A program made the position numbers and the translations under genes. 52,782 nucleotides of DNA from Haloplanus sp. (GTDB lineage Archaea; Halobacteriota; Halobacteria; Halobacteriales; Haloferacaceae): NCBI RefSeq assembly GCF_028275055.1, contig NZ_JAQCNJ010000010.1:1-52782 (forward strand), in the 5' to 3' direction. Each line of letters starts with the position of its first letter. The first letter of the stretch is position 1. Positions 632 to 18,663 of the stretch are shown one piece after another. Below the pieces are notes generated by a model. That model was given only the letters and a program-made list of their open reading frames with translations. It was not told the DNA's origin and did no database searches.

Positions 632-704
632 CGCCCGGAGCGGGATTTGAACCCGCGTCACGACCGTGACAGGGTCGTATGATGGGCCACTACACCATCC
701 GGGC
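632..704 (-). tRNA. tRNA-Asp (anticodon GTC)
   Basis: On the minus strand a full cloverleaf can be drawn. The acceptor stem GCCCGGA pairs with TCCGGGC, the anticodon arm has the loop CTGTCAC with anticodon GTC, and the T-arm carries GGTTCAAATCC. The discriminator base is G, as expected for Asp tRNA. The 3' CCA is not encoded. No intron is seen. Confidence 0.96.
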
Positions 705-14934: not shown

Positions 14935-15114
14935 CGTCGCTCCCGTCCGTTTCTCACCCTGGCGGCGACACCGTCGCTCCCGGCCGGACGCTCGTCCGGC
15001 CCCGACGCTCCGACGACCGTCGACGCGAACCGGCCGTCCGTGTCGGTCCCGCCCGGTCCGGCCATCACGTCTCCTCCCGTCGCATCACAGCCGCCGAGGG
15101 CCGACCGATGCAGT

Positions 15115-15120
15115 CTTATA
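15115..15120 (+). promoter_or_regulatory. TATA box of the ACT-hom operon
   Basis: CTTATA at 15115-15120 is 23-28 bases upstream of the ATG at 15143, so transcription would begin at or within a few bases of that codon and the first ORF would be leaderless. The 180 bases before the box show no gene. Confidence 0.6.
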
Positions 15121-15142
15121 CCCCCTTGGCACAGTATGTACC

Positions 15143-15262
15143 ATGCCTAGCGGCACGACCACCGGCAGTCGATGTGTCGGCACGGAGCTATCCCGCGGTC
15201 CGTTTCCGTCGCCGATCACAATTATTCGGCTGGCGGGTCGTGCCGCGGGGGTGACGGCCTGA
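15143..15262 (+). CDS. Candidate leader peptide (39 codons) before the ACT-hom operon
   Basis: The frame runs from ATG 15143 to TGA 15260-15262, and the next ATG (ACT protein) begins at 15263 with no gap. Six of 39 codons are Thr, including three in a row at codons 5-7, and codons 25-28 read Ile-Thr-Ile-Ile. The downstream operon makes homoserine dehydrogenase, the branch-point enzyme toward Thr and, through Thr, Ile, so this composition recalls the bacterial thr leader. Third-position GC is lower than in the neighbours, and I do not know the peptide as a family. It could be untranslated leader RNA or an unrelated small protein. The TATA box position supports a leaderless start. Confidence 0.45.
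   Translation: MPSGTTTGSRCVGTELSRGPFPSPITIIRLAGRAAGVTA
15206..15257 (+). promoter_or_regulatory. Possible SD-sequestering helix before the ACT gene
   Basis: A Shine-Dalgarno-like GGGGGTGA lies at 15247-15254, eight bases before the ATG at 15263. Bases 15206-15213 (CCGTCGCC) can pair with 15250-15257 (GGTGACGG) over eight pairs, one of them G-U, which would cover this site. A second, mutually exclusive pairing joins 15192-15198 (CCCGCGG) with 15243-15249 (CCGCGGG). The Ile-Thr-Ile-Ile codons (15215-15226) sit just after the 5' arm. Pairing was worked out by eye and no energy was computed. Confidence 0.35.
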
Positions 15263-15835
15263 ATGCCCGACGAGGCGGTCACCGCCGACGAGGAAAACGA
15301 CGAACGCACCGACGGCGGCGAGCGGTCGCAGACACACACGATACGGCTGGAACTCGTCGACAAGCCGGGCGAACTGTTGTCGGCGCTCCGGCCCATCGCG
15401 GACAACGGCGGCAACCTGTTGTCGATCTTTCACGAGCGTGGTAACCTTACGCCCCGGGGACACATTCCCGTGGAGGTGGCTGTGGAGTGCCCGCCCGACC
15501 GCTTCGAGATCATCGTCGAGGCGCTCCGGGAGGAGGGTGTCAACGTCATCCAAGCCGGCGCGGAGCGGTACGGCGAGCAGTTGACGCTCCTGTTGGTCGG
15601 CGACATCGTCGATACCGACCTCTCCGATACGCTCCGTTGTATCGAATCGAGTACGGATGCGACACTCTCCGACCTCTCGTTGTCGGCTCATCAAGGTCGT
15701 GATGGGGCATCGAGCGCTCGGCTGCGGTTGGCGACTCGCACCGGTCGCACCGACGAGGTGTTCGCCCACGTCCGCGACATCGCCGACCGGAAGGATCTCG
15801 ACGTGATCGAACCGCTCCTGGAGGTGTCGGAATGA
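15263..15835 (+). CDS. ACT-domain amino-acid-binding regulatory protein
   Basis: This 190-residue protein has an acidic N-terminal tail of about 27 residues, then an ACT domain beginning THTIRLELVDKPGELLSALR and continuing through GGNLLSIFHERG. A second, weaker ACT-like unit (LTLLLVGDIVDTDLSDTLR) fills the C-terminal half. ACT domains bind amino acids and confer feedback control. The four-base overlap of its stop with the start of homoserine dehydrogenase (ATGA at 15832) suggests it acts on that enzyme, probably as a separate regulatory subunit sensing an end product such as Thr. That role is inferred from context. Confidence 0.8.
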   Translation: MPDEAVTADEENDERTDGGERSQTHTIRLELVDKPGELLSALRPIADNGGNLLSIFHERGNLTPRGHIPVEVAVECPPDRFEIIVEALREEGVNVIQAGAERYGEQLTLLLVGDIVDTDLSDTLRCIESSTDATLSDLSLSAHQGRDGASSARLRLATRTGRTDEVFAHVRDIADRKDLDVIEPLLEVSE

Positions 15836-18591: not shown

Positions 18592-18663
18592 GGGCTCGTA
18601 GATCAGTGGTAGATCGCTTCCTTCGCAAGGAAGAGGCCCCGGGTTCGAATCCCGGCGAGTCCA
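18592..18663 (+). tRNA. tRNA-Ala (anticodon CGC)
   Basis: A full cloverleaf of 72 bases is present. The acceptor stem is GGGCTCG with CGAGTCC and contains the G3-U70 pair, the identity element for alanyl-tRNA synthetase. The anticodon stem CTTCC/GGAAG encloses TTCGCAA with anticodon CGC. The T-arm is CCGGG-TTCGAAT-CCCGG and the discriminator is A. CCA is not encoded. The 3' end is duplicated downstream (18761-18783), as at a site used by a tRNA-targeting integrase. Confidence 0.96.

Follow-up and report, generated by a model that had tools for sequence, protein, structure and literature searches.

A conserved threonine/isoleucine leader reading frame ahead of the ACT-hom gene pair of haloarchaea looks like amino-acid sensing during translation

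The stretch of DNA analyzed here (the window; 52,782 nucleotides) is one contig of a Haloplanus genome of 2.3 Mb that is 79% complete, and it carries a gene for an ACT-domain protein that overlaps hom, the gene for homoserine dehydrogenase (Table 1). Threonine and isoleucine are end products of the pathway that runs via homoserine. The ACT gene product scores 24.6 bits against Pfam ACT, slightly below the cut-off of 27. An initial annotation, made from the letters alone, had noted a TATA box, an ATG at 15143 and a 39-codon open reading frame (ORF) upstream of this pair, with six Thr codons (three in a row at codons 5-7) and the series Ile-Thr-Ile-Ile at codons 25-28; the other Thr codons are 14, 26 and 38. 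It had also noted that the TGA of this ORF (15260-15262) directly adjoins the ACT start codon at 15263 and that a Shine-Dalgarno-like (SD) sequence lies within its last codons, and all of these features were confirmed in the sequence. As the TATA box begins 28 nt 5' of the ATG, a leaderless start is predicted. The leader peptide of the window matched neither Pfam nor NCBIfam entries at E 0.001. Elsewhere in the window, Rfam marks two tRNA genes, at 18592-18663 (+) and 632-704 (-), and no others.

Table 1 Features of the ACT-hom locus, with positions numbered along the window
Feature	Position	Strand	Remark
TATA box CTTATA	15115..15120	+	first base 28 nt 5' of leader ATG (15143)
Leader ORF, 39 codons, MPSGTTTGSRCVGTELSRGPFPSPITIIRLAGRAAGVTA	15143..15262	+	same ORF type in 89/93 family loci (script)
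P1 5' strand GCGGCACGACC	15150..15160	+	from nt 8 of the ORF; pairs with 15236-15246
P2 5' arm TCGGCACGG	15177..15185	+	pairs with 15206-15215; P2 lies inside P1
CCCGCGG	15192..15198	+	can pair with 15243-15249, covering part of the SD; competes with P1
P2 3' arm CCGTCGCCGA	15206..15215	+	contains the initially proposed anti-SD arm 15206-15213; ends at the Thr/Ile codons
Thr/Ile codons ATC ACA ATT ATT (codons 25-28), proposed sensing site	15215..15226	+	
P1 3' strand GGTCGTGCCGC	15236..15246	+	ends against the SD
SD-like GGGGGTGA	15247..15254	+	within last leader codons
ACT-domain gene, 190 aa	15263..15835	+	start adjoins leader stop
hom, homoserine dehydrogenase, 319 aa	15832..16791	+	ATGA overlap with ACT gene

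The ACT protein was matched in 170 of the 170 genomes of the window's own family (f1) and in 287 of the 293 genomes of an order sample. Loci were chosen by score and by hand to spread over genera (numbered with g, loci with L); an ACT match was present in 167 of the fetched loci, and in 165 of these it was accompanied by a hom match on the same strand. Six were dropped, namely the second fetches L092, L095 and L102 and the second ACT copies L087, L088 and L160. The loci kept were 93 from f1, in 25 of its 28 genera (g8, g13 and g23 left out), and 68 from eight other families; f12 denotes the second family used in the comparisons below. The scan for leaders took a TATA-like box (five of six letters) whose first base lies 23-36 nt 5' of an ATG, together with a stop close to the start of ACT. 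The distance from box to ATG in the f1 and f12 leaders so identified is 27 to 33 nt, mostly 31. Of the second ACT copies, L087 and L160 carry an ORF of 11 codons where the long leader would be, while L088 has no leader ORF by script. The ACT gene matches of three genomes from other families (G243, G271 and G320) contain one in-frame TGA.

The script found the leader ORF in 89 of the 93 f1 loci (25 genera sampled), in 6/6 f12 loci and in 9/9 Haloferax-type loci. Outside f1 and f12 it was found in 19/20 loci of f7, 8/14 of f4, 3/5 of f5 and 4/8 of f6, and in smaller samples in 1/1 (f14), 1/12 (f17) and 0/2 (f10); these ORFs span 12-18 codons in f7 and f5 and 9-32 codons in f4. Comparison of the loci brings out not only the ORF, but also the place of its stop. 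Relative to the ACT start, the stops of the 89 f1 leaders lie at +4 in 65 cases and at 0 in 18, with rarer offsets of +8 (three), -1 (two) and +1 (one), and dinucleotide-shuffled versions of the same upstream sequences yielded such an ORF in 24 of 4450 (0.5%). In the Halorubrum-type genus g21, 11 leaders have nine different ORF lengths (19-55 codons) and every one of them ends at offset +4. The leader/ACT pair thereby shows the overlapping or abutting stop and start that characterize termination-reinitiation. An SD-like stretch is marked in the leaders displayed.

The four f1 loci missed by the scan were inspected by eye. In L053 and L069 the ORF is present behind a weaker TTTTAC box, and in L040 no leader is visible. 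In L071 (Halorubrum-type, G125) the start is present and the frame is shifted; the length of a C-run in this leader differs from that of its kin, which is either a real break or a sequencing error. The f7 (Natrialbaceae-type) loci have a leaderless-type ORF of 14-18 codons, often MTTCGRP-like with Thr at codons 2-3, and the overlap of its stop with the ACT start measures 8 or 11 nt (e.g., L112, L135, L137, L151, L156 and L164). At the DNA level, the leader gave one strong match per genome in 12/12 Haloplanus genomes, the next best match having an E of 0.006. No such leader was found directly 5' of thrC-type or ilvB-type genes (14 loci each, including two second copies each) or of asd, trpE or thrB genes (12 loci each, Haloplanus genomes), in a scan confined to the sequence immediately 5' of each gene; trpE and ilvB need not be the first genes of their operons.

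The leader peptide does not evolve as a selected protein, since changes in the f1 leaders are spread equally over codon positions 1, 2 and 3 (202, 208 and 218). Codon differences between nearest pairs of f1 leaders comprise 223 synonymous and 707 other differences. With no conservation of the protein type, the case for translation of the leader rests on its frame and its codons. In one leader from each of 28 genera, Thr and Ile together make up 18.4% of codons in frame vs 7.2% and 9.0% in the other two frames, and they make up 11.6% of the ACT proteins. A run of at least two Thr/Ile codons occurs in 22 of these 28 leaders, compared to 18.5 (sd 2.1) in codon shuffles, so that runs as such are only mildly above chance. 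The place and kind of the codons stand out by comparison. Thr or Ile is found at codons 23, 24 and 25 in 15, 17 and 17 of 29 leaders; over 2000 codon shuffles, the per-codon count had a 99.9% level of 14 and a maximum of 15. The two residues are also frequent at codons 5 (19 of the 29 leaders), 13 (16), 11 (13) and 3 (12); for codons 5 and 13 pairing can be the explanation, as they fall within the 5' strands of the helices P1 and P2 described below (GGCACG).

The Thr codon used at the later place is mostly ACA. Within codons 20-28, 45 ACA triplets stand in frame compared to a single one in each of the other two frames, and among leaders of at least 30 codons ACA occurs there in frame in 25 of 26 genera. 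No ACA precedes codon 23 in the 29 leaders. Past codon 12, 38 of the 42 Thr codons within Thr/Ile runs are ACA, a codon that is rare elsewhere: it makes up 6% of the Thr codons in the ACT genes that follow (23 of 363), and four long genes of the window use it for 6 of their 94 Thr codons. In several genera (Haloplanus, g27, g6, g20 and g2) ACA is followed by ATT or ATC. Some runs are interrupted by another residue, which is Met in L010 and L011, Ala in L053, Gly in L054 and Val in L083. Neither a run nor ACA at codons 21-30 is present in 10 of 96 leaders (g3, g17, four of g19, one of g21 and one of g22), and with the exception of these, codons for the pathway products are grouped in the leader as in attenuators. 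Comparison bears out the leader frame with Thr/Ile codons that the initial annotation had described. The ACA signal stands at codons 23-25; the three Thr codons at 5-7 of the window leader overlap a P1 strand and are not ACA.

The RNA from 15143 to 15290 has a predicted folding energy of -83.3 kcal/mol, whereas its shuffles average -64.2 (sd 4.0) and none of 200 folded as well (z -4.8); the parameters used are not meant for molar KCl. This fold is carried mainly by P1, an 11-pair helix that had been absent from the initial annotation. Co-variation was measured on 73 leaders from 23 genera out of the 95 found in f1 and f12, the other 22 having no anchor codon or being too long or too short; using the first leader of each genus, the pairing energy of a leader's own segments was compared with that of segments permuted between genera. 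P1 (segments 1:4) had a z of -5.9 and P2 (2:3) a z of -4.5 over the 23 genera, with 0 of 5000 permutations as good in either case, while the other eight segment pairs lay between -1.6 and +1.1. Twenty redraws gave median z values of -6.8 for P1 and -4.5 for P2, and with any one genus left out z stayed at least at -5.1 and -3.9, respectively. Of 118 window pairs mapped without selection, nine were below -3 and every one of these belonged to P1 or P2. Co-variation is seen in P1 and P2, and not in the helix that the initial annotation had drawn.

Counts of pairs in aligned leaders were less uniform. Across 25 aligned leaders, 78% of cells were paired vs 33-47% when the strands were slid, and shuffles gave 76.1%, with 8 of 500 as high as the real value. 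Both sides had changed in 19 cells (1 of 500 shuffles as high), and the covariation score was reached by 9 of 500; in the same count, two measures did not exceed shuffles, namely the number of pairs with changes on both sides (131 of 500) and that of further pair types (423 of 500). RNAalifold on a MAFFT alignment of the 25 leaders returned a weak consensus only, perhaps owing to a difference in register of the leaders from Haloferax and f12. An early count for P2 on 40 distinct sequences gave 66% of cells paired vs 34-41% slid, with two genera out of register. At least eight of ten P2 pairs could be formed in 50 of 86 leaders, a figure that we do not count as evidence since the best of 13 registers was picked for each leader.

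The 3' strand of P1 ends 9-12 nt 5' of the ACT ATG in 14 of 23 genera and up to 52 nt in the others. The best 5' strand starts at nt 4-9 in 21 of 23 genera, in a search window that began at nt 4. When the 12 Haloplanus leaders were folded singly, P1 had a probability of at least 0.83 in nine and P2 of at least 0.66 in seven and about zero in five, which makes P2 less certain than P1 in this genus. The 5' arm of P2 (15177-15188 and its counterparts in relatives) keeps the sequence TCGGCACGGAGC in many genera, even if the 3' arm has changed, and one pairing partner alone would not require such conservation. Pairing of this arm with the P1 3' strand (2:4) is energetically possible and was rejected at a z of -0.5, in a swap test of little power as both strands are conserved. 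P1 and P2 are compatible with each other. Rfam gave no match at gathering threshold in 20 loci, its sole sub-threshold match within 14935-15400 of the window being sX5 at E 0.17. No intrinsic terminator was found before the first gene, and TTTT occurs in 1 of 73 leaders.

The initial annotation had proposed that CCGTCGCC (15206-15213) pairs with GGTGACGG (15250-15257) and so hides the SD. These bases can indeed pair, with one G-U, but the probability of this helix is 0.00 in 12/12 Haloplanus leaders, its co-variation z is +1.1 (segment 3 with the SD; median +0.9 in 20 redraws), and no pair involving an SD window fell below -2 in the 118-pair map. The helix masking the SD that would be expected of a translational attenuator was therefore not found, except that the helix of CCCGCGG with 15243-15249 beats P1 in 3 of 12 Haloplanus species. 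This competing helix was noticed in Haloplanus and g27 only, so control at the SD may have been added there. As for the use of such SDs, the authors of a Haloferax study report, in the parts of it available, no de novo start at the downstream SD of the first four gene pairs and a reinitiation that was lowered to varying degrees by SD removal (PMC6728339), and the SD in the Haloferax sod 5'-UTR was not used for initiation according to the available part of PMC3986360. These data argue against a release of the SD that permits a de novo ACT start, as initially proposed. By analogy with the Haloferax pairs (PMC6728339, in the same parts), the SD-like sequence of the leader is probably an aid to reinitiation.

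A ribosome was then modelled with its A-site on the Thr/Ile codons, a position in which it would occupy the 3' arm of P2 together with some of the 3' strand of P1. The mean opening energy of the SD region was 11.6 without the ribosome vs 11.8 (pairs allowed to span the ribosome) or 11.5 (none allowed) with it stalled, and the SD region became easier to open in 5 or 7 of 23 genera and harder in 5 or 8, so that a modelled stall does not systematically free the SD as the initial annotation had supposed. The 5' end behaved differently in the model. The first 18 nt became easier to open with the ribosome on the codons in 14 of 23 genera, the mean falling from 9.1 to 6.9, and in the Haloplanus window their opening energy fell from 16.3 to 5.5 kcal/mol. 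In 9 of 23 genera the gain at the 5' end was below 1 kcal/mol or none, and a scan of ribosome positions gave this gain at many other places in the leader as well.

From these comparisons, the 5' end of the ACT-hom mRNA is probably a translated Thr/Ile-sensing leader, with a leaderless ORF that is predicted to be translated, and its best reading is that it acts on ribosome loading and on termination-reinitiation. We infer its translation in vivo, the sensing of charged tRNA, the sign of the response and a gate at the 5' end. Ribosomes would initiate at the leaderless AUG and translate about 22 codons, passing through P2, before they meet usually two to four Thr/Ile codons, the Thr codons being mostly the rare ACA. 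They would stop at the ACT start, reinitiate on ACT and then reinitiate on hom via the ATGA overlap. In Haloferax, hom is strictly coupled to an upstream ACT-type (amino acid binding protein) gene, as stated in the available parts of PMC6728339, and that pair is presumably the orthologue of the ACT-hom pair of the window; given these coupling data, the leader would most likely feed ribosomes to ACT and then to hom.

When charged tRNA-Thr (or tRNA-Ile) is scarce, the ribosome would dwell on these codons with the P2 3' arm in its channel, and P2 and P1 would remain open. As P1 ties up approximately bases 8-18 of the mRNA, an open P1 may keep the leaderless 5' end free, which would allow more loading and hence more homoserine dehydrogenase, while with ample Thr/Ile the helices would close behind each ribosome. 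The sign calls for caution, since a ribosome that stalls completely would, if coupling is strict, bring ACT-hom output down. On the strength of the modelling, the gate at the 5' end taken alone is a tentative proposal, with the chances leaning against it. The whole chain, in which slow decoding of rare Thr/Ile codons holds open the helix joining the 5' end to the SD and a ribosome thereby gates the loading of further ribosomes at the first codon, followed by two reinitiations and with neither a terminator nor SD unmasking, would be somewhat unlikely to hold in every link.

Several other explanations were weighed against a Thr/Ile-sensing leader. The mini-ORF might only deliver ribosomes to ACT, with Thr/Ile codons that carry no information. 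Coupling of this kind is documented in Haloferax (PMC6728339, available parts), short ORFs, many of them without a Thr/Ile run (e.g., MSERTEVRR), are found in f4 (8/14) and f5 (3/5), and the runs exceed codon shuffles only mildly. However, ACA stands at a fixed codon number in f1 and f12 and in frame at 45:1:1, and two co-varying helices surround these codons, which makes an uninformative uORF unlikely. The helices could instead belong to a structured RNA sensed by a ligand or a protein, such as the ACT protein acting on its own mRNA, to which the ORF would be secondary. This account can draw on the co-variation of both helices and on the P2 5' arm, whose sequence is kept in many genera, and with no Rfam match in 20 loci a new RNA would be possible. 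The frame, the stop position and the in-frame ACA would then be left without a reason, and we regard this account as distinctly improbable.

The initially proposed model, in which a stalled ribosome takes the P2 3' arm off the SD for a de novo ACT start, can point to pairing sequences that are kept in 11 of 12 Haloplanus species (by eye; L005 loses one pair) and to the other SD-covering helix that wins in 3 of 12. Set against it are the lack of SD co-variation, the zero probability of its helix in all 12 Haloplanus species, the unchanged mean opening of the SD and the Haloferax findings on de novo starts, and we consider it very unlikely. What survives of that attenuator idea is a Thr/Ile leader before ACT-hom in many genera, and not its release of the SD. 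That the ORF encodes a small functional protein is in line with its conservation, but is hardly credible in view of the equal change at the three codon positions, the small share of synonymous differences in f1 and the absence of a Pfam or NCBIfam match for the window's peptide.

As far as our searches went, a Thr/Ile leader before ACT-hom is undescribed. The initial annotation knew of no haloarchaeal case, and we found no amino-acid leader-peptide attenuator for archaea in a literature search that covered few subscription papers. In its available part, one article mentions uORF attenuation as a general occurrence in archaea and names no case there (PMC10219788). No mention of a leader before ACT-hom was found in the available parts of PMC6728339, nor anything on attenuation or a leader peptide in those of PMC7531240; a term search had no match in PMC12482152 and one match only, an insertion-sequence gene, in PMC10134880. 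In the available part of PMC4983044, none of 16 uORF entries is named as ACT or homoserine dehydrogenase, four being without a name. Table 2 of that paper, as far as available, includes Haloferax uORFs before tryptophan--tRNA ligase and pheS.

The conserved Thr/Ile leader before ACT-hom looks like the amino-acid sensing during translation that is known from bacteria, a resemblance read from sequence. Leader-peptide control of biosynthetic operons is a textbook bacterial mechanism. The thr operon of E. coli has a transcription attenuator of the thrL type, with a leader of Thr/Ile codons before a homoserine dehydrogenase gene, and the haloarchaeal locus shares with it the Thr/Ile leader ORF before such a gene and a hairpin beside the codons. 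Unlike thrL, the haloarchaeal leader has no T-run terminator, its mRNA is predicted to be leaderless, its stop overlaps or abuts the next start, and its 5' end is tied by P1 to the bases just 5' of the SD. Translational attenuators of the erm type depend on a leader peptide and drug-dependent arrest. In common with these, a ribosome slowed on the leader ORF would alter pairing around a start, whereas the proposed haloarchaeal signal is the decoding of codons, and SD release is unsupported here.

Among haloarchaeal systems, the coupled gene pairs of Haloferax are alike in their ATGA-type overlap and in the dependence of hom on an ACT-type gene, and differ from the present case in that the upstream ORF here is a Thr/Ile leader with co-varying helices (PMC6728339, available parts). 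The uORFs reported in Haloferax 5'-UTRs of 150-250 nt are likewise small ORFs in haloarchaeal leaders, and the Haloferax-type ACT-hom leaders, at about 104 nt, fall below that range (PMC4983044, available part). If the reading as a Thr/Ile-sensing leader is true, its occurrence in Haloferax, Halorubrum, Halogranum, Haloplanus and their kin would mean that a bacterial solution is also used in archaea, and that the same solution arose where most mRNAs are leaderless and SDs seemingly do not serve de novo starts.
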